In this document: piece after piece, positions 33,532-41,462 of the stretch
How the letters are laid out: every line of letters begins with the position of its first letter
Position numbering within the stretch: the stretch's first letter is position 1
DNA from: a virus
DNA: 64,000 nucleotides
Virus record (IMG/VR): IMGVR_UViG_3300035681_000021
Span: 1 to 64,000 of that record
Direction: 5' to 3' (one strand)
Position numbers and translations under genes: made by a program
Notes under the pieces: model-generated
The model's input: the letters and a program-made list of their open reading frames with translations, nothing else
Database searches by the model: none
What the model was told of the DNA's origin: nothing

Positions 33532-34656
33532 TTACTTGTTACCGAAATAAATTTTGTGCTCGGACAACATCTTGCCGAAGTTGGCAATGGTTGCGAACAC
33601 ACCTACACGCTGAGATGTAGCGACGGTGTTGCAGAAGATTGACTGCATCTCTGCACGCATACGCCACACATACTCAGTGACTGCCTCAGCTTCTTCGCGT
33701 GTCTGTGCACGAGATACAAACTGGAAGACTTGAATCAACTGCGCGGTTGGGTTGTCAGACATCGGTGCCTTGGCAGGGTCAGCGATAACACGCGCATAGT
33801 CACAGATGTCACGACCGAAGCGAACGAACGATGCCATTGCCTCGGCAGTAACGACACCGACAGTACCGATAAGTGCATGCTCGAGTGTGTCGTCGTCGAG
33901 TGTGTGCATGCCCTCGTCCAAGATGTCACCAGCGGCAACGAGGGAACGAGGCGTTGCATACGCAAGTTGTGTGGACTTGGGATTGAAGATGTGTGCGTTG
34001 TCTTTGGACAGCGTCTTACCCTCAAACTTGCCACCCTTCTCGTAGTCGAGGAACGAGTCCATGACCATTGGGTTGTTGTCAACGAATGCGATGACCATAG
34101 GATTGATACCCGCATCGGTAGCCCAACGCACCCACTCGACCGCAGTCGGCTTGCGCATCTTGACGAACACAAGACGATTGCGTAGGTGAGCTTGGATGGA
34201 ATCGCCAAGACCTTCGACCGAAAGATTGGTAGCGGCAAAGACAACGCTACCCTCGACGAAGTGATAGTTGCCAACGCGTTGCTCGTAGACGATAGGCGCA
34301 AGAACATTCTTGATGAACTGCGGTGCCTTGGCTATCTCATCTAAGAACGCCATGATAGGTTTGCCACCGTTAACGCCGCGCTGATTAGTCTTGGATACAC
34401 CGAAGCGTTCATTGGGAAGCTCACGCGACACGCCGTTCTCACGGTCAAGGTCAGGCATCCACACTGAACCATCGGACAACTGAGTGCAGTCGATGGGGTC
34501 AACGGCAATGTGATTGGCAAACTTAGGCAGACGCTTGAGTTGATGGAACAACGCAGTCTTGCCGATACCGTTCTCGCCCTCGACGATGACGGTACGCTTG
34601 TGACCCACAGCAGAGATGAGGTCAATGACTTGAGAAGAAGAGAGGTATTTATCCAT
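33532..34656 (-). CDS. MoxR-type AAA+ ATPase
   Basis: A 374-residue ATPase. Walker A is EGENGIGKTALF near 25-36, Walker B is MAFLDEIAKA near 101-110, and sensor 1 is VVFAATNLS near 150. An arginine-finger-like HLRNRLVFVKM follows near 170. This is the MoxR/CobS pattern of AAA+ proteins that work with a VWA-domain partner as metal-insertion or complex-remodelling machines. The partner is the next gene upstream at 34678-35874. In phages such pairs recur but their targets are unknown. The ring should be hexameric. Confidence 0.8.
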   Translation of the reverse strand: MDKYLSSSQVIDLISAVGHKRTVIVEGENGIGKTALFHQLKRLPKFANHIAVDPIDCTQLSDGSVWMPDLDRENGVSRELPNERFGVSKTNQRGVNGGKPIMAFLDEIAKAPQFIKNVLAPIVYEQRVGNYHFVEGSVVFAATNLSVEGLGDSIQAHLRNRLVFVKMRKPTAVEWVRWATDAGINPMVIAFVDNNPMVMDSFLDYEKGGKFEGKTLSKDNAHIFNPKSTQLAYATPRSLVAAGDILDEGMHTLDDDTLEHALIGTVGVVTAEAMASFVRFGRDICDYARVIADPAKAPMSDNPTAQLIQVFQFVSRAQTREEAEAVTEYVWRMRAEMQSIFCNTVATSQRVGVFATIANFGKMLSEHKIYFGNK

Positions 34657-34677
34657 GATTACTTTCCTTTGTGTTTA

Positions 34678-35874
34678 TTAAAGATTGATATGCAAGACCT
34701 TGCCGTGAGTGGGAACGAACGAGTCGTTGTCCACCACACCCCACAGAGACGGCATCGGGGTGCTAGGCGTATCGCAACCGAGGTATCCATCGGTTAGCCA
34801 CACGATTGCTTTGGCATCTATCTTGTGCTCACGAATGTAGTCGACAACAACTTGTGGAGTTGTGCCACCACCGCCTTGAGGTTTCAAGAGAGATGCAATC
34901 TGCTCATAGTCAGCAGGCTTGAACACTTGGTCACCGCACACTTCGTTGTCCCACCACAAGATACGAACAGCCTCGGGTTTTACTTGCGAGAGCATACGAG
35001 CAATCTCACCAAAGAGCAGACGATAGTGCGGATACATAGAGCCTGATGTATCAGGTGCAAGGATAAGCTCACCGACTGTCTCGTTGAAGTGTGAGGGCAT
35101 GATGAAGCCAGACGCAAGCAGTCGTTTGTTGGGAGGACAGAAGCGTGAGTTCTCGTCACCACTACACACAGACACAAGCCAGTCTTGCATGGATGGTATC
35201 CAGTTAGTCATGCGTTCCTTGGCATGACCGAAGATGTCACGCCCGCCACCACCTTTGCCCGCCAACTTACGAGCAAGCATCTCGCCTTGACGATTGGCAT
35301 CGTCAATCTGTTTGCCCAGCTTTTCTTTCTCATCATCGGCAAACTCGCCATCCTCATGTGCATCGATGGGTTCATCGTATCCGTGGTCATCGCTGTTGCC
35401 GCCCTCGCCATCCTCGGGTTCCTTGCGTCCTTGTTTGATGAGGTCGTTGAGTACCTGAGGGAAAGACCAGCCGAAGTACTTGCGGTCAATCAGTAGCGTT
35501 TGTGTGGGGCGTTCAACGAATGTGAAGTTGGGGTCAAGCTCTTCGATGAGTGCGTTGACCACATAGTCCTGCGCGATGTTGCTGAGCTTAGGCATGCGCT
35601 TAATCTCTGCACGATACAACACACAATGCTTGAGTGCAACATGGAAGTTCTCATGCAGTACTAGGTAGCGCAGTTGCTTGCGGTTGAGTGGCGCGATGAA
35701 AGTAGAACCGTACTTCTTGTCACGCCCGTTAGTGGATGCGGTAGGCACCTTGTCTGATACCTCAGACTTGCCCATACATATCACACCGCTGAGCAATGCA
35801 AACCGATGGTCACGCATGCAGTCGATGTTGCACGCCTGAACCCGTTGGTTGAGGGTCATCTTCTCGAAAGTCAT
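34678..35874 (-). CDS. VWA-domain protein with N-terminal metallopeptidase-like region (DUF2201-like)
   Basis: A 398-residue protein. The N-terminal part has HENFHVALKHCV (near 75-86), an HExxH zinc motif in the setting of DUF2201 putative metallopeptidases. A very acidic linker (about 150-195) follows. The C-terminal part is a VWA domain: LAPDTSGSMYPHYRLLFGEI with the MIDAS motif DTSGS near 273-277, GGGGTTPQVVVDYI with the MIDAS Thr, and VWLTDGYLG with the MIDAS Asp. VWA proteins pair with MoxR ATPases, as encoded next. The operon probably starts here: an operator-like palindrome lies upstream, and the start has GGAGAAGCAA before ATG. Confidence 0.8.
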   Translation of the reverse strand: MTFEKMTLNQRVQACNIDCMRDHRFALLSGVICMGKSEVSDKVPTASTNGRDKKYGSTFIAPLNRKQLRYLVLHENFHVALKHCVLYRAEIKRMPKLSNIAQDYVVNALIEELDPNFTFVERPTQTLLIDRKYFGWSFPQVLNDLIKQGRKEPEDGEGGNSDDHGYDEPIDAHEDGEFADDEKEKLGKQIDDANRQGEMLARKLAGKGGGGRDIFGHAKERMTNWIPSMQDWLVSVCSGDENSRFCPPNKRLLASGFIMPSHFNETVGELILAPDTSGSMYPHYRLLFGEIARMLSQVKPEAVRILWWDNEVCGDQVFKPADYEQIASLLKPQGGGGTTPQVVVDYIREHKIDAKAIVWLTDGYLGCDTPSTPMPSLWGVVDNDSFVPTHGKVLHINL

Positions 35875-37315: not shown

Positions 37316-37976
37316 CTTCTATCTCCCCTTTGTTGTTGAATCTCCAGCCATTGATGTATATGAGGTCTTTGAATGCTTCCTCACTCGTGTAGCCCTCATA
37401 CTCCTGCCTCAAAGCGTCATAGATTTCATCGGCGTATTCTTTTGCCCGACTAATCGCAAACTCTTCAAGCTCGCATACCAAGCGTTCGGTGTCGATTGCT
37501 TGGTCTAACTCATGCACCAACGCACCTTGCAAGATGCCGTGCTCAAGTAAATCGCCGTTGTCCTCACCCAGAGATGCAAAGCACTTGATGCCGTCGTAGC
37601 TCATCGACCCTGAGTGGTTGTAGTAGAACGACCTGCGTTGCACGCCCATCGTTGGTTCTACCCATTGATTGCGTATAAGCTCGACCAGTACTGTGTACCT
37701 TGAGAACTCAGGATGTTCGTGTGTGACGAAGTGCTCAATGAACGGCATGAGTTGTACACACCCTGTCCACGAAGCACCATCGCCTTGAGAAGAAAACCCG
37801 CTGAATTGAATTTCATCAATGCTGAAACCTTTAGCGAAGCCCTCTTCTTTGAAGCGTTCGTACACACACTCGTACCAATCATCAGGCGGTTCGCCATACA
37901 GGCGTATGGCGTTGTCCTTTGCTTGTTGTGATAGGTCTTCAAATTCCACGGTTTCTGTCCCACACAACGCGCACAT
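37275..37976 (-). CDS. Hypothetical early protein with N-terminal CxxC
   Basis: A 233-residue acidic protein beginning MCALCGTETVEFEDLSQQAK. The CALC pair may bind metal. The segment IDEIQFSGFSSQGDGASWTG recurs in phage proteins of unknown role that start with an EYF/EFEDLS-like motif; ARDEA-like antirestriction activity has no support here. The C-terminal half is helical and acidic (YADEIYDALRQEYEGYTSEE). The ATG at 37976 has GGAGG six bases upstream and overlaps the preceding gene by 38 bases; the longer frame is inside that gene. Confidence 0.6.
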   Translation of the reverse strand: MCALCGTETVEFEDLSQQAKDNAIRLYGEPPDDWYECVYERFKEEGFAKGFSIDEIQFSGFSSQGDGASWTGCVQLMPFIEHFVTHEHPEFSRYTVLVELIRNQWVEPTMGVQRRSFYYNHSGSMSYDGIKCFASLGEDNGDLLEHGILQGALVHELDQAIDTERLVCELEEFAISRAKEYADEIYDALRQEYEGYTSEEAFKDLIYINGWRFNNKGEIEDGIQVTSSVCHTL

Positions 37977-38568
37977 TCCATTCCTCCATTTCTTTGTGTA
38001 TTGCTTTCTCAACATACTCGTCTATCACTTTGTTCAATGCCTCCTTCAGTTTCTTGTCAAGTATCTCTTCCATAGTTTCAATAATCATCTCCTCCACACG
38101 GCTTGCGTCAGGATAGTCGTTGCTGTCCAAGTACATCTCTATCTTGTCGTCAACATCGTACGCATCAAACTTGTCATCGAAGTCATAGTCTGTGATTGCG
38201 TCGTGTATCTGGTCGCTGATGTCTGTGTCACGAATTTCTCTGCGTACTTGCTCTGTGATGATGTCGTCGACGATTTCTCTAACGCTGTCTTGCGTCAGGT
38301 GTTCCTCTGTGTCGTTGTGTTCATCTATTGATTCTTCTGTGATGTCTTTGATTGCCTCCCTGAACGACTCGTCGATGTACTTCACAGCACTATGAGCTTC
38401 GAGCACGGCGCTGACCTTCTCGTTGACTTGGGTATCAATGTGCTCATTGATAGCGTGCAGTAGTGTGTGTATGAGAGTTGGCTTGGGCTGAGGCGTTGGG
38501 GCTACCTCGGGGGTGAGCTGTGTTGCTTGTTCCAACGCTTGTGTTTCTGGTTGAGTGATTTGATTCAT
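37939..38568 (-). CDS. Very acidic helical protein
   Basis: A 209-residue protein, MNQITQPETQALEQATQLTP then a Pro-rich piece, followed by strongly acidic helices: AIKDITEESIDEHNDTEEHL, SVREIVDDIITEQVRREIRD, TDYDFDDKFDAYDVDDKIEM and METMEEILDKKLKEALNKVI. High negative charge over most of its length suggests a DNA mimic or a protein-docking scaffold. DNA-mimic antirestriction proteins have this kind of charge, but no homology is visible. The ATG at 38568 follows AAGGAAAGCAATC. Confidence 0.55.
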   Translation of the reverse strand: MNQITQPETQALEQATQLTPEVAPTPQPKPTLIHTLLHAINEHIDTQVNEKVSAVLEAHSAVKYIDESFREAIKDITEESIDEHNDTEEHLTQDSVREIVDDIITEQVRREIRDTDISDQIHDAITDYDFDDKFDAYDVDDKIEMYLDSNDYPDASRVEEMIIETMEEILDKKLKEALNKVIDEYVEKAIHKEMEEWNVRVVWDRNRGI

Positions 38569-38613: not shown

Positions 38614-38640
38614 AACTGGCAGACACCATGTCTGCGAGTT
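38614..38640. repeat. Palindrome family, copy 1
   Basis: A 27-base imperfect palindrome: AACTGGCAGACA, loop CCA, TGTCTGCGAGTT. One G.G mismatch interrupts a 12-base stem. It lies 29 bases past the stop of the 27-residue peptide gene in the leftward sense, and TTTTT follows it in the rightward sense. The 101 bases around it (38569-38669) hold no gene. Confidence 0.85.
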
Positions 38641-38669
38641 TTTCTACGAAAAAGAGGTATGAGTGTTCC

Positions 38670-38753
38670 CTACGCTATGCGCCATGCGAATAGGTCGAGG
38701 AGGAGGACTACGAGTGCGGCTGTGTACACAAGTACAAAGGTGAGGTTGGTCAT
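38670..38753 (-). CDS. 27-residue membrane peptide
   Basis: MTNLTFVLVYTAALVVLLLD continues LFAWRIA. It is a single hydrophobic span with polar ends. AAGGAAAG lies about 12 bases upstream, a usable ribosome site. The gene fills the space between the 77-residue gene and a palindrome. Peptides of this size are hard to prove; the clean membrane profile and the tight fit are the evidence. Directly after the stop comes GGGAACACTCAT, the translation-start leader seen at 26104 and 32604, but the next codon is not ATG, as if a start had been lost. Confidence 0.45.
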   Translation of the reverse strand: MTNLTFVLVYTAALVVLLLDLFAWRIA

Positions 38754-38781
38754 GTTGTTAGTCTTTCCTTGGGTGTGTATT

Positions 38782-39015
38782 TCATTCTTCTAACTCCCTG
38801 AATTTAAATGGCACATTTACTTTACTCAACATGTTGCCCTCACAATCAAAGACAACCATATTGAAGAACCCCAGTTCTTGGCGTATGTGTACATAGCCGA
38901 TGTCTTTTGTGACTTCGTGGTGCGCGTCGCTGTACACATCAAACTTGATAACGACTGAATCGTCATTGAGTCTGTCTGTACGCAAGGCAATGCGTTCATA
39001 GCTTTTCAATTTCAT
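38782..39015 (-). CDS. Small beta-rich hypothetical protein
   Basis: A 77-residue protein, MKLKSYERIALRTDRLNDDS then strands VVIKFDVYSDAHHEV, IGYVHIRQELGFFNMVVFDC and NMLSKVNVPFKFRELEE. An all-beta small domain is likely. Unrecognised. The ATG at 39015 overlaps the upstream stop as ATGA and sits behind the cassette GGAGAAGCAGA, so it is preferred to a start eight codons earlier. Confidence 0.6.
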   Translation of the reverse strand: MKLKSYERIALRTDRLNDDSVVIKFDVYSDAHHEVTKDIGYVHIRQELGFFNMVVFDCEGNMLSKVNVPFKFRELEE

Positions 39016-39164
39016 TCTGCTTCTCCTTGATAACACCAAACATCCTGTTGCAAAGCATCAGGTTCGTATTCGCCATTGGCAATTTCCAACAGCATGGACA
39101 CCAGCGTGTCCATAGTCACATCACTTCCCAGCCATGCGACCAGTTGTTCTCTTGTTACTTTCAT
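39012..39164 (-). CDS. 50-residue conserved-looking small protein
   Basis: MKVTREQLVAWLGSDVTMDT continues LVSMLLEIANGEYEPDALQQ and ends VWCYQGEAE. The opening and the TxDTLVxMLxEIANGEY pattern remind me of very small phage proteins found widely in aquatic siphoviruses and podoviruses. Helical and acidic. Start and stop both form ATGA overlaps with neighbours, and the start uses GGAGAAGCAGA before ATG. Below usual length cut-offs, so easily missed. Confidence 0.65.
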   Translation of the reverse strand: MKVTREQLVAWLGSDVTMDTLVSMLLEIANGEYEPDALQQDVWCYQGEAE

Positions 39165-39307
39165 TCTGCTTCTCCCTCAATAGTTCTGATTGCTTCTTCA
39201 ATGGCGGCTATGCCATCGTCCTTGTTGCCCTTTGTCAGGTCGTACAGGGCGGCGTTGAGAATCTCCCACACCAGTTGTGCGGTGCGTGCGTCTATGTCTT
39301 TAATCAT
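39161..39307 (-). CDS. 48-residue small protein
   Basis: MIKDIDARTAQLVWEILNAA continues LYDLTKGNKDDGIAAIEEAI and ends RTIEGEAE. Two amphipathic helices joined by a charged loop. GGGAGAGAAGA directly before the ATG gives a good ribosome site; a longer frame reaching back into the palindrome at 39334-39360 is unlikely. It overlaps the next gene as ATGA. Function unknown. Confidence 0.6.
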   Translation of the reverse strand: MIKDIDARTAQLVWEILNAALYDLTKGNKDDGIAAIEEAIRTIEGEAE

Positions 39308-39333
39308 TCTTCTCTCCCAAAGTTGTTTGTACA

Positions 39334-39360
39334 AACTAGCAGACACCATGTCTGCCAGTT
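39334..39360. repeat. Palindrome family, copy 2
   Basis: AACTAGCAGACA, loop CCA, TGTCTGCCAGTT: a 12-base stem with one A.C mismatch. Read leftward it begins at the stop codon of the 39359-39997 gene, sharing two bases with the TAA. Confidence 0.85.
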
Positions 39361-39997
39361 ACTTACGCCGAGCCAGTAGCTCGGGCACTTTCATGCGTTC
39401 CTTCTCCTCCTTTCCTATGCTCATCCACCTGTCACGCAAGGACTCGACTCCGAAGTCGGACACCAAGTCCCACCAATCTTTCTTAATCCTTTTGTACTTG
39501 TGCGGGTCTGCCTCAAAGTCGAGCATGATGCGCCCCATCTCTTTCTTCAGCACCCGCACATACTTATCCAACAACCCTGCATACACATCGTTGCCCGCTT
39601 CATGGGCGTAGCGTAGCTGTGCATTTATCTTTCTGATTTCATATGTCATTGGTGCAAGGGTTTCTTTGAGTTGTCTGCGCCATTGGTCAACCCACGCTTC
39701 GTATCTCGCCTTGCTCATGATGAGCCGCGCCATGCGTTTGCGTTCGTCCAGTATCAGCTTTGCTTTCACTTCGCTTATGTCACCACTCACCATCATGTTG
39801 TGCAGTTGCTTGGGTGTCTGCTTGCGTGGGGGTGTGCGCTTGGGTTGGCAGTCCTTGCAGTTCTTTGAGCTGATGGTCATGAGTACCTCACCTTTCATAC
39901 CCCGTGCTTGCATTTGGGCACGAGATAGTCGGCGTTTGAATTGTGCAAGGGGCTTGTCTGCCCCACATTTGGCACATTTTTTGTAGTCCTTTTGCAT
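39359..39997 (-). CDS. Zinc-ribbon plus basic helical protein
   Basis: A 212-residue basic protein. The N-terminal MQKDYKKCAKCGADKPLAQF and a later KNCKDCQPKRTPP give CxxC...CxxC, a zinc ribbon near residues 8-50. The rest is helical and Lys/Arg-rich (ERKRMARLIMSKARYEAWVD, DKYVRVLKKEMGRIMLDFEA). The combination suggests binding to DNA or RNA, perhaps an early regulator or a small-terminase-like or HNH-derived factor, but no catalytic residues are seen. The ATG at 39997 is chosen because the region upstream is the repeat-rich control region, and GGAAAGG lies before it. Confidence 0.6.
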   Translation of the reverse strand: MQKDYKKCAKCGADKPLAQFKRRLSRAQMQARGMKGEVLMTISSKNCKDCQPKRTPPRKQTPKQLHNMMVSGDISEVKAKLILDERKRMARLIMSKARYEAWVDQWRRQLKETLAPMTYEIRKINAQLRYAHEAGNDVYAGLLDKYVRVLKKEMGRIMLDFEADPHKYKRIKKDWWDLVSDFGVESLRDRWMSIGKEEKERMKVPELLARRK

Positions 39998-40023
39998 GAG
40001 AAAGACCTTTCCTTTTAGTGGGA

Positions 40024-40053
40024 GATACCCACTTGTTGCTCGACGATACCCAC
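40024..40053 (+). repeat. Two GATACCCAC direct repeats, 21-base spacing
   Basis: GATACCCAC occurs at 40024-40032 and 40045-40053, exactly 21 bases apart, about two turns of the helix, so both would face the same side of DNA. The same sequence forms half of the palindrome at 40328-40344. Likely binding sites for one protein. Confidence 0.6.
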
Positions 40054-40066
40054 CATTTTGCGTACT

Positions 40067-40086
40067 TGGACACTCTAGTGGGTGCG
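40067..40086 (+). repeat. Left arm of 20-base inverted repeat
   Basis: TGGACACTCTAGTGGGTGCG matches the reverse complement of 40295-40314 (TGGACACACTACTGGGTGCG) at 18 of 20 positions. The arms are separated by 208 bases that include the TA-rich core. Confidence 0.7.
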
Positions 40087-40294
40087 GTGTTTTACCAGTA
40101 AACATCGAGGATTGTAGAGCACCATCCCCACATACCTACCCAGTTTCCAGAGAACACAAACCTTTTTTCTTTTTTTCAAAGCAAACCACACCCACTTGCC
40201 CGTATATATATATATCTATCTTTTAATCTCTTATATATATATAGGTATTGTGGGCTGGACATTGCTTGAAGCCCCGCCAACGCTGGAAGAATTG

Positions 40295-40314
40295 CGCACC
40301 CAGTAGTGTGTCCA
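40295..40314 (-). repeat. Right arm of 20-base inverted repeat
   Basis: Reverse-complement partner of 40067-40086 with two mismatches. It lies 13 bases left of the GTGGGTAT-type palindrome at 40328-40344, so both site types cluster on each side of the AT-rich core. Confidence 0.7.
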
Positions 40315-40327
40315 GTTGCGCAGAATG

Positions 40328-40344
40328 GTGGGTATGATACCCAC
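40328..40344. promoter_or_regulatory. Palindrome GTGGGTATGATACCCAC
   Basis: A perfect 8-base inverted repeat around a single G. Each half equals the GATACCCAC sites at 40024 and 40045, so this is probably the full operator and those are half-sites. Confidence 0.55.
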
Positions 40345-40410
40345 TACTGTATATAAACACAGTAGAAGGATTAGTTACTGTATGTTCATGCAGCTTTTTG
40401 TTATTTTTTG

Positions 40411-40437
40411 AACTGGCAGACATCGTGTCTGCCAGTT
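40411..40437. repeat. Palindrome family, copy 3 (perfect)
   Basis: AACTGGCAGACA, loop TCG, TGTCTGCCAGTT: a perfect 12-base stem. Read leftward it begins nine bases after the stop of the 60-residue gene at 40447-40629. No T-run follows leftward. Confidence 0.9.
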
Positions 40438-40446
40438 TGCCTGTTG

Positions 40447-40629
40447 TCAGAGGAGTTTGAGTTGTGTGCATTGAGCCTTTACTTTTTGCCAGTCTTCTTC
40501 CCAGACATACCAGTCCCACCTTGCCTGTCGCAAGGCTTCGGCACGCCTTGGGTCTTTGCGCCTGAGTTCCTCATCGGCTTTGAGTTGCGCCTTGAGGGCG
40601 CTGAGTTTGGCTTTGATTGCGGGTTTCAT
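40447..40629 (-). CDS. 60-residue basic helical protein
   Basis: MKPAIKAKLSALKAQLKADE then ELRRKDPRRAEALRQARWDW and EEDWQKVKAQCTQLKLL. A helical, Lys/Arg-rich coiled coil. AAAGGAAG lies about six bases before the ATG. It follows the 35-residue gene by 11 bases. A small nucleic-acid binding or host-directed protein is possible; there is no family I recognise. Confidence 0.55.
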   Translation of the reverse strand: MKPAIKAKLSALKAQLKADEELRRKDPRRAEALRQARWDWYVWEEDWQKVKAQCTQLKLL

Positions 40630-40640
40630 TGGGCTTCCTT

Positions 40641-40748
40641 TCAGACAAACAGATACCAGACGGGAGAGAATGTGCGCTTGCAGGCAATAGCCATGCGGTA
40701 TTCGTGCGCAAGGATTTGACGGATTTCTTTGAGTTGAGCTTTAGTCAT
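40641..40748 (-). CDS. 35-residue small protein
   Basis: MTKAQLKEIRQILAHEYRMA continues IACKRTFSPVWYLFV. A basic helix followed by a hydrophobic end. GGAAAG lies six bases before the ATG. The frame runs between a terminator-like hairpin and the next gene's ribosome site, and codon content looks like that of its neighbours. Too short to judge by homology. Confidence 0.45.
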   Translation of the reverse strand: MTKAQLKEIRQILAHEYRMAIACKRTFSPVWYLFV

Positions 40749-40786
40749 GATGCTTTCCAGTTAAGTTGATTGACAAAGAAAAGAAC

Positions 40787-40814
40787 AGCGGTGGGACGAG
40801 ACATCCACACCGCT
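40787..40814 (-). terminator. Leftward hairpin downstream of the first early gene
   Basis: AGCGGTG at 40787-40793 pairs with CACCGCT at 40808-40814, with GGA/TCC extending the stem after a one-base bulge. In the leftward sense TTCTTTTCTTT follows. Together with palindrome copy 4 just upstream it may end or weaken leftward transcription. Confidence 0.4.
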
Positions 40815-40821
40815 TTGAAAA

Positions 40822-40848
40822 AACTCGCAGACAAGATGTCTGCCAGTT
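40822..40848. repeat. Palindrome family, copy 4
   Basis: AACTCGCAGACA, loop AGA, TGTCTGCCAGTT: a 12-base stem with one C.C mismatch. Read leftward it starts at the first base after the TGA of the 40849-41241 gene, and its last bases run into TTTTTT, as in an intrinsic terminator. Confidence 0.85.
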
Positions 40849-41241
40849 TCAGATTGAAGCCAAGAAGCGACGCTTCTCAGCCGCAGTCATTGCCTGATAC
40901 GCTGTCACAAGCTTGGTTACCTTGTCCTTCTTCTTGCTTGTCTTTGGTTTCTTTGCGTCTGCCTCGACATCCACAAAGATGTTGTCGAGAATCCTATCGG
41001 TGCGTCTTTGCTCGGCAGTACCTCGCCCGAATGTCCAACCACGCTGACCCTCGTAAGGCTTGCGTGTGACCTTGGGCAGTTGCGTCACATAGAACACGAC
41101 ATAAGGCACAGCGTCCTTGCGTGTGCCTACACCGTTGGCAAGCAAGGTGTCGAGCAAACTGGCAGACGAGATGTCTGCGAGTTTCAGGGTAGGAACGATT
41201 GCACGATAGGTGTTTGCATTGATTGCTGTTGCGAGTTTCAT
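40849..41241 (-). CDS. First early gene, basic protein of unknown function
   Basis: A 130-residue protein: MKLATAINANTYRAIVPTLK, then LADISSASLLDTLLANGVGT, a strand DAVPYVVFYVTQLPKVTRKP, and a very basic part KKPKTSKKKDKVTKLVTAYQ before a final helix. The LKLADISSAS stretch is encoded by a copy of the 27-base palindrome. It is the first gene after the leftward promoter and its leader terminator, the usual place for an early regulator or host-takeover protein. GGAG lies nine bases before the ATG. The longer open frame upstream would run through the terminator and promoter. Confidence 0.6.
   Translation of the reverse strand: MKLATAINANTYRAIVPTLKLADISSASLLDTLLANGVGTRKDAVPYVVFYVTQLPKVTRKPYEGQRGWTFGRGTAEQRRTDRILDNIFVDVEADAKKPKTSKKKDKVTKLVTAYQAMTAAEKRRFLASI
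41157..41183. repeat. Palindrome family, copy 5, within coding sequence
   Basis: AACTGGCAGACG, loop AGA, TGTCTGCGAGTT, in frame inside the first early gene, where it encodes KLADISSAS read leftward. The other copies would encode KLAD(T/K)MSAS in a frame that is not used, so this copy looks like an element absorbed into a protein. Confidence 0.8.
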
Positions 41242-41257: not shown

Positions 41258-41280
41258 GAAAAACCCCGCAACTGGCGGGG
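41258..41280 (-). terminator. Intrinsic terminator in the early leader (possible attenuator)
   Basis: Leftward CCCCGC (41280-41275) pairs with GCGGGG (41269-41264) around a five-base loop, followed by TTTTTCTTTT. It lies between the -10 box at 41317-41322 and the first early gene at 41241, so early transcripts must read through it. Confidence 0.7.
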
Positions 41281-41316
41281 CGACAGAACGACTGAGTTCC
41301 CCCAATCGATAAATCT

Positions 41317-41322
41317 ATTATA
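41317..41322 (-). promoter_or_regulatory. Leftward early promoter, extended -10
   Basis: Read leftward the sequence is TGTGCTATAAT, a perfect TATAAT preceded by TGC, the extended -10 form. No strong -35 lies 16-18 bases upstream, which is normal for extended -10 promoters. Transcription would start near 41310 and give a leader of about 70 bases. Confidence 0.6.
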
Positions 41323-41462
41323 GCACAAACAGGTTTGGCAATACCCTTGACACGATAAATGTGAATACCTTAGACCCCACCGTACCCCCATGACCCCATA
41401 TGTCAGCGAGGCATGCGTCGTTGTGTGAACACTATTCCCCTCCGATTCTCAGCACTTCTGTA

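Follow-up and report, generated by a model that had tools for sequence, protein, structure and literature searches.

Palindromes that change in concert with an adjacent early gene are probable operators of its product in a group of environmental phages

The DNA analysed here (the window) is a stretch of 64,000 nucleotides from a virus, positions 1 to 64,000 of the 66,411-base IMG/VR record IMGVR_UViG_3300035681_000021. Within 2.6 kb of its leftward early operon lie five 27-bp palindromes of the consensus AACTnGCAGACA-nnn-TGTCTGCnAGTT, named S1 to S5 in the direction of that operon, together with the operon's first gene, here called gA (Table 1). The consensus is matched exactly at S2 to S5 and with one mismatch at S1, where shuffled sequences led us to expect 0 matches instead of the 5 found. 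A sequence-only reading, made earlier from the letters of the window, had described the five palindromes and noticed none elsewhere in the window; both observations stand, and across the whole record there is no additional copy with up to three mismatches. Nor do such palindromes occur elsewhere at comparable density, the family being confined to the one 2.6-kb stretch. The positions relative to minus-strand stop codons were also described correctly (S5 lies 29 nt past one; for the others see Table 1), as was the placement of S1 inside a gene, where it encodes KLADISSAS, and the clustering of mismatches at one stem position, which is pair 5/23.

Table 1. The palindromes and their surroundings in the window
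Feature	Position	Strand	Description
Likely early leftward promoter	41317..41322	-	-10-like TATAAT, consensus match only; relatives show TACAATAGAGG at the equivalent place
Leader hairpin	41263..41281	-	hairpin with T-tract, attenuator-like, between promoter and gA
gA	40849..41241	-	130 residues; opens the leftward operon and encodes the proposed palindrome-binding protein
S1	41157..41183		palindrome within the gA coding sequence, AACTCGCAGACATCTCGTCTGCCAGTT on the gene strand
S2	40822..40848		palindrome directly 3′ of the gA stop codon (0 nt)
60-residue gene	40447..40629	-	between S2 and S3
S3	40411..40437		palindrome 9 nt 3′ of the stop of the 60-residue gene
Zinc-finger gene	39359..39997	-	212 residues, zinc-finger/HNH-like, between S3 and S4; weak PHROG endonuclease match
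S4	39334..39360		palindrome that shares 2 nt with the stop codon of the zinc-finger gene
S5	38614..38640		palindrome in the leader of the 209-residue gene, followed by a conserved GTTGGTGCGCTTCACCAAC hairpin
209-residue gene	37939..38568	-	downstream of S5

The window motif is present in 41 IMG/VR stretches. In the phage contigs that carry it the slots are constant (inside gA, at the gA stop, after the 60-residue gene, after the zinc-finger gene and before the 209-residue gene), and the gene content between S4 and S5 is highly variable. Among these copies the arms are nearly invariant, the central 3 bases are free and so is pair 5/23, which is unpaired in 18 of 18 S5 copies and paired in 23 of 23 S3 copies. 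In the codons that form the arms of S1, silent variation is lower than in the remainder of gA (p=0.004). The sigma-70 consensus is not enriched at S1. The palindromes had no match at gathering score in Rfam 15, a nucleotide search of cultured phages returned no relative, and neither the gA protein of the window nor that of L070, a relative with a different motif, had a match among cultured phages. A host origin of the motif was considered and discarded, as a single match, about the chance level, was found in 257 Gb of bacterial and archaeal genomes (a GTDB-wide set). This match (L050, 3603-3629) lies between two convergent genes of a metagenome-assembled genome, a terminator-like placement, and the same genome holds no second copy of the motif core.

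Since contigs found through the motif bias the apparent conservation of the arms, relatives were next selected by TerL (79-97% identity), and the motif was not used in the selection. Most of these relatives lack the window motif. Searched de novo for families of near-identical dyads, the sequence upstream of TerL gave one that scored above all 20 shuffles at 43 of the 58 loci; 10 of the 15 negative loci have less than 1.9 kb of upstream sequence. The arrays consist of 3-8 palindromes in the same early-operon slots and at similar distances from TerL; within one phage all sites share one half-site spelling, and that spelling is specific to the phage. What is conserved is thus the position of the sites, not their spelling. 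Examples are GCAGACA (window), ACAGACA (L123), GTGGACA (L080), GCGGACA (L099), GGGGACA (L070, L076 and L130), GTGGGACA (L098), GGGTCA (L069, L081 and L128), GTGTCAC (L121), GTGGTCA (L117), GATTCAG (L124), GGGAGAGA (L086), GGGGAGA (L088 and L100), GAGAGAGAA (L064), GGGGGTA (L063) and CAGTATC (L090); further spellings exist, giving roughly twenty or more types. In several relatives the spacer is 0-2 nt, and in several families the palindrome runs through the axis, so that a loop would not fit. Equivalent sets of sites, spelled differently, occur in hundreds of related environmental phages; that the spelling changes along with the gA protein (see below) would be expected if the array were a rapidly evolving switch for self-recognition. 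The fixed slots and the concerted change of sequence mean that there is no insertion polymorphism of one element, and on this ground the earlier suggestion of a small mobile palindrome is rejected.

Homologues of gA were found in nearly all TerL-selected loci and are extremely variable, and it is with this variation that the motif changes. Motif distance correlates with gA distance (r=0.48) and not significantly with the distances of TerS (0.13) or TerL (0.06). The correlation persists when TerS and TerL are controlled for (r=0.48, p=0.0005) and after dereplication (n=27, r=0.32, p=0.0002), and the signal resides in the N-terminal and central part of gA, with no contribution from the C-terminus. 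Individual comparisons make the same point. L063, L064 and L066 lie at distances of 0.00-0.01 from one another in TerL and TerS, yet their gA proteins and motifs are unrelated. In the near-complete genomes G002 (L069) and G003 (L070), TerL is 98% and TerS 91% identical and most replication genes are 80-95% identical, whereas the gA proteins defy alignment and the motifs are not the same; the flank downstream of S5 is almost identical in the two, and both half-sites of S5 differ at the mirrored position (GGGTCA/TGACCC versus GGGACA/TGTCCC).

In a blind test, 190 loci were retrieved by three gA sub-alignments alone and subjected to the same de novo dyad search. All 159 loci with at least 3 sites show the motif class predicted from their gA clade (GACA, 67 of 67; GAGA, 25 of 25, five of them scored by eye, GGAGAGA or AGAGAGA having escaped the automatic label; TCA, 67 of 67). 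Of these 159 arrays, 155 have a site between -20 and +60 nt relative to the gA stop; usually there is a second one 250-600 nt ahead of the stop, close to the start of gA or slightly within it. The exceptions are loci with fewer than 3 detected sites, and four GACA-class loci that we re-examined (L157, L162, L171 and L200) bear cognate sites adjoining gA. Some arrays are mosaic: L171 has the cognate GGGACA adjoining gA and GAGAGAGA farther off, L243-L247 have single foreign sites, and CAGTATC and GCAGACA are mixed in reciprocal fashion in L009/L090 and L031. All exact foreign (non-cognate) sites are distal, with 0 adjoining gA.

A cultured phage with such sites exists, and the system is therefore testable. 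Planktothrix phage Pag-Yong1 (OL906435, L153) encodes a gA homologue (UMO76074) flanked by an operator in the leader and another shortly past the gene. Allowing up to 3 mismatches, CGGTTCAGnCTGAACCG occurs 38 times in its genome, against 0 for the reversed control, and these sites lie at gene junctions over the entire genome; in the early half many sites are 3 nt past a stop codon and about 21-22 nt ahead of the next start. A second gA-like gene of this phage (OL906435.1 32306-32827, minus strand), a paralogue of UMO76074 with 39% identity, has an operator 8 nt after its stop. The records OL906435.1, OQ594354.1 and PP438419.1 state different hosts, have an equal length of 65,014 bases and contain an identical gA homologue; the records of MinM2 and Pra-JY27 equal Pag-Yong1 in length and in their gA homologue, and the three cultured-phage records are possibly one phage deposited three times. 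In the literature we found no paper naming Pag-Yong1 or describing palindrome arrays of this kind.

The above comparisons suggest that the palindromes function as operators in double-stranded DNA, to which the gA protein, the product of the first gene of the leftward early operon, binds as a dimer; to this reading we give a probability of about 0.72. The sites themselves are defined computationally as dyads with conserved arms, a free 3-nt centre, fixed slots and a half-site that co-varies with gA. Of the suggestions made in the sequence-only reading, that of protein-binding sites is supported; what that reading chiefly missed is the difference in motif between close relatives and its link to the neighbouring gene. 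The gA protein would bind the palindromes as a dimer and, as the position of sites at its own gene indicates, would repress its own unit. At the intergenic sites bound gA protein may act as a roadblock to RNA polymerase; the location of sites at gene ends of the early operon and the variable placement of S1 suggest an elongation roadblock over strict promoter occlusion. The early operon would be shut off after a first burst, and an incoming phage with matching operators would presumably be shut off, and so excluded, as well. Selection to escape the gA proteins of other phages could keep the specificity changing, probably by replacement of gA together with its flanking sites, followed by adjustment or exchange of the distal ones.

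Two AlphaFold2 models of gA were obtained, with a predicted local distance difference test score (pLDDT) of 74.6 for the first and 89.0 for the second (69 sequences, L069 class), which consists of a helix-helix-beta hairpin-helix and a small helical C-terminus. Among the residues that separate the GGGTCA from the GATTCA gA proteins are changes of charge at reference positions 36, 41, 76 and 77, although the minor classes are represented by no more than 6 and 3 sequences. Positions 76 and 77 lie in the helix after the hairpin, and the split of the A2 subclass also involves a change of charge, E78K, where that helix begins; the modelled post-hairpin helix is therefore a candidate recognition helix. 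Weak fold matches (MarR-like, E ~1; KH-like and designed alpha-beta-beta-alpha, Z ~3) were not used as evidence, and matches of the gA profile in the PDB, mainly to designed helical proteins, were judged to be artefacts of composition.

Several observations weigh against gA-bound operators. No Pfam or PHROG family scores above threshold with gA, no recognisable DNA-binding fold and no helix-turn-helix (HTH) were detected in it, and its models gave no confident match in Foldseek searches of PDB and BFVD or with VIA-align. The motif strings that entered the Mantel test were hand-curated from the de novo dyad search. The loci of the blind test are not independent and its gA classes share ancestry, so the test is strong and not a formal proof. 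Distal sites can be non-cognate, and therefore not every site need function. The location of S1 relative to the promoter is not fixed: in different phages it falls upstream of the -10 element, in the leader or within gA. Finally, we found no tyrosine integrase (PF00589, 13 records) and no serine recombinase (PF00239, 11 records), in searches that did not cover parABS and in records of which most are not proven complete, so that classic lysogenic immunity is not evident; if the palindromes are operators, they probably serve to turn off early genes at a set time and to keep out superinfecting phages of like type.

An alternative that keeps gA as the binder, and that we consider improbable, is that the sites belong to a genome-organising, partition-type (ParB/parS-like) or replication-control system, in which multiple palindromes nucleate a nucleoprotein complex. 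The palindromes are indeed clustered near the gene of the proposed binder, the diversification of specificity resembles plasmid incompatibility, and the DNA between S3 and S4 includes an AT-rich stretch with a long inverted repeat. However, gA has no ParB similarity in Pfam or PHROGs, and the gene-end sites of the early operon and the genome-wide junction sites of Pag-Yong1 suit transcription units better.

Less probable still are RNA elements, that is, stem-loops in early transcripts that gA binds or RNase III processes and that control stability or translation. Single copies fold well as RNA, sites lie 3′ of stop codons and, in Pag-Yong1, many stand 21-22 nt ahead of the next start, and a second conserved hairpin is present 3′ of S2 and S5. 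Against this, it is the stem sequence that is fixed and the loop that is free. Imperfect pairs on the sense strand show no excess of G-U over A-C (104 versus 143; inner positions, 53 versus 49; Pag-Yong1, 8 versus 13), pair 5/23 is unpaired in all the S5 copies, and spacers as short as 0-2 nt occur. The same features speak against the mRNA-stabilising hairpins proposed in the sequence-only reading. Terminators, also proposed there, are not a general explanation, a T-tract being found on the gene-sense strand at one copy (S2, 40822) and on the opposite strand at another (S5, 38614).

About as improbable as RNA elements is the possibility that the palindromes are recognised by another phage-encoded protein merely linked to gA. 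Linked small genes vary too, and the family of the 60-residue gene correlates with the motif in a small alignable set (n=14), a signal that is lost after dereplication. The zinc-finger gene between S3 and S4 was rejected as binder since, with gA controlled for, it contributes no signal (r=0.03), and TerS was rejected because that of L069 and L070 is 91% identical while their motifs differ; in the mosaic arrays it is the gA-flanking sites that stay cognate. Recombination-promoting linkers without a dedicated binder, bordering exchangeable gene cassettes like the promoter-early stem-loops (PeSL) proposed for T4-like phages, are very unlikely, as they would fit the great variation of gene content between S4 and S5 and the existence of mosaic arrays but leave unexplained the conserved slots and the concerted change of all sites tracking gA.

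The nearest known system to the proposed operators is the repressor-stoperator system of cluster A mycobacteriophages; the palindrome array would act in a similar way but is not a member of it. In these phages (L5, Bxb1, TipsytheTRex) the repressor and the stoperator motif diverge together, and the sites are located in short intergenic spaces (PMC6550527, PMC9283540). The arrays described here likewise place many copies of one short site intergenically and one near the regulator gene, motif and regulator co-vary between related phages, and the ~38 genome-wide sites of Pag-Yong1 are comparable to the 20-30 of L5. Unlike stoperators, which are 13-bp asymmetric sites mostly in one orientation, the sites here are dyad-symmetric, and most of the phages have only 4-8 of them, confined to the early operon near gA; gA has no detected HTH and is unrelated to the repressor as far as visible, no integrase was found, and the elongation block is our inference. 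Dyad symmetry and a position adjoining the regulator's own gene are shared with lambda-type operators of dimeric repressors. Unlike those, the sites are spread over several early-operon genes, at gene ends and inside gA, in no fixed position relative to a promoter, and no lysogeny module was found in the integrase searches (parABS was not searched for). A palindrome can lie within an open reading frame, as in Rickettsia palindromic elements, but fixed slots, a length of 27 bp, concerted sequence change in each phage and no mobility signature set the array apart. PeSL are repeated stem-loops in early intergenic regions; unlike them, the palindromes have a half-site that tracks a neighbouring protein and no fixed promoter attached.

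We conclude that the palindrome array is real and not an ordinary one, being best described as a putative regulator with dispersed operators whose specificity changes rapidly and in concert, in phages without a detected integrase. More tentatively, at somewhat less than even odds, it may represent a previously undescribed phage specificity system, in which a small hypervariable DNA-binding protein of a new fold and its palindromic operators form an exchangeable "password" by which phages that have no lysogeny genes shut off their own early operon and that of like-typed competitors, with dozens of mutually blind types on near-identical backbones. The arrays provide a natural set of protein-DNA specificity pairs, ~20 or more half-site types with their cognate gA, including pairs that differ between phages with near-identical terminase genes. 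If gA binds as proposed, they would be a ready system for studying the protein-DNA recognition code of an unrecognised fold. They would also be evidence that phages without integrases carry immunity-like incompatibility types, and competition between such phages within one cell could then be tested directly.

Other features of the region were observed in passing. The inverted repeat between S3 and S4 is 53 nt long (40046-40098 / 40283-40335, 79% complementary) and surrounds a TATATA tract, with an AT run at ~40200-40250; an AT-rich tract is similarly placed in the relatives L086, L094, L098, L100 and L108, and the repeat and tract together are a possible replication origin. Neighbouring minus-strand genes at 33532-35874 are similar to an AAA (MoxR-like) ATPase and a VWA-type protein; they were not found in G002, G003 and G005 and are retained in G008 and G009, relatives with the window motif, and in G004, whose motif is different. 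The terminator-like hairpin in the gA leader (Table 1) is a candidate attenuator. Upstream of the gA promoter, at ~41370-41395 on the minus strand, lies a G-rich element, GGGGGTACGGTGGGGTC, which is kept across classes with differing operators.

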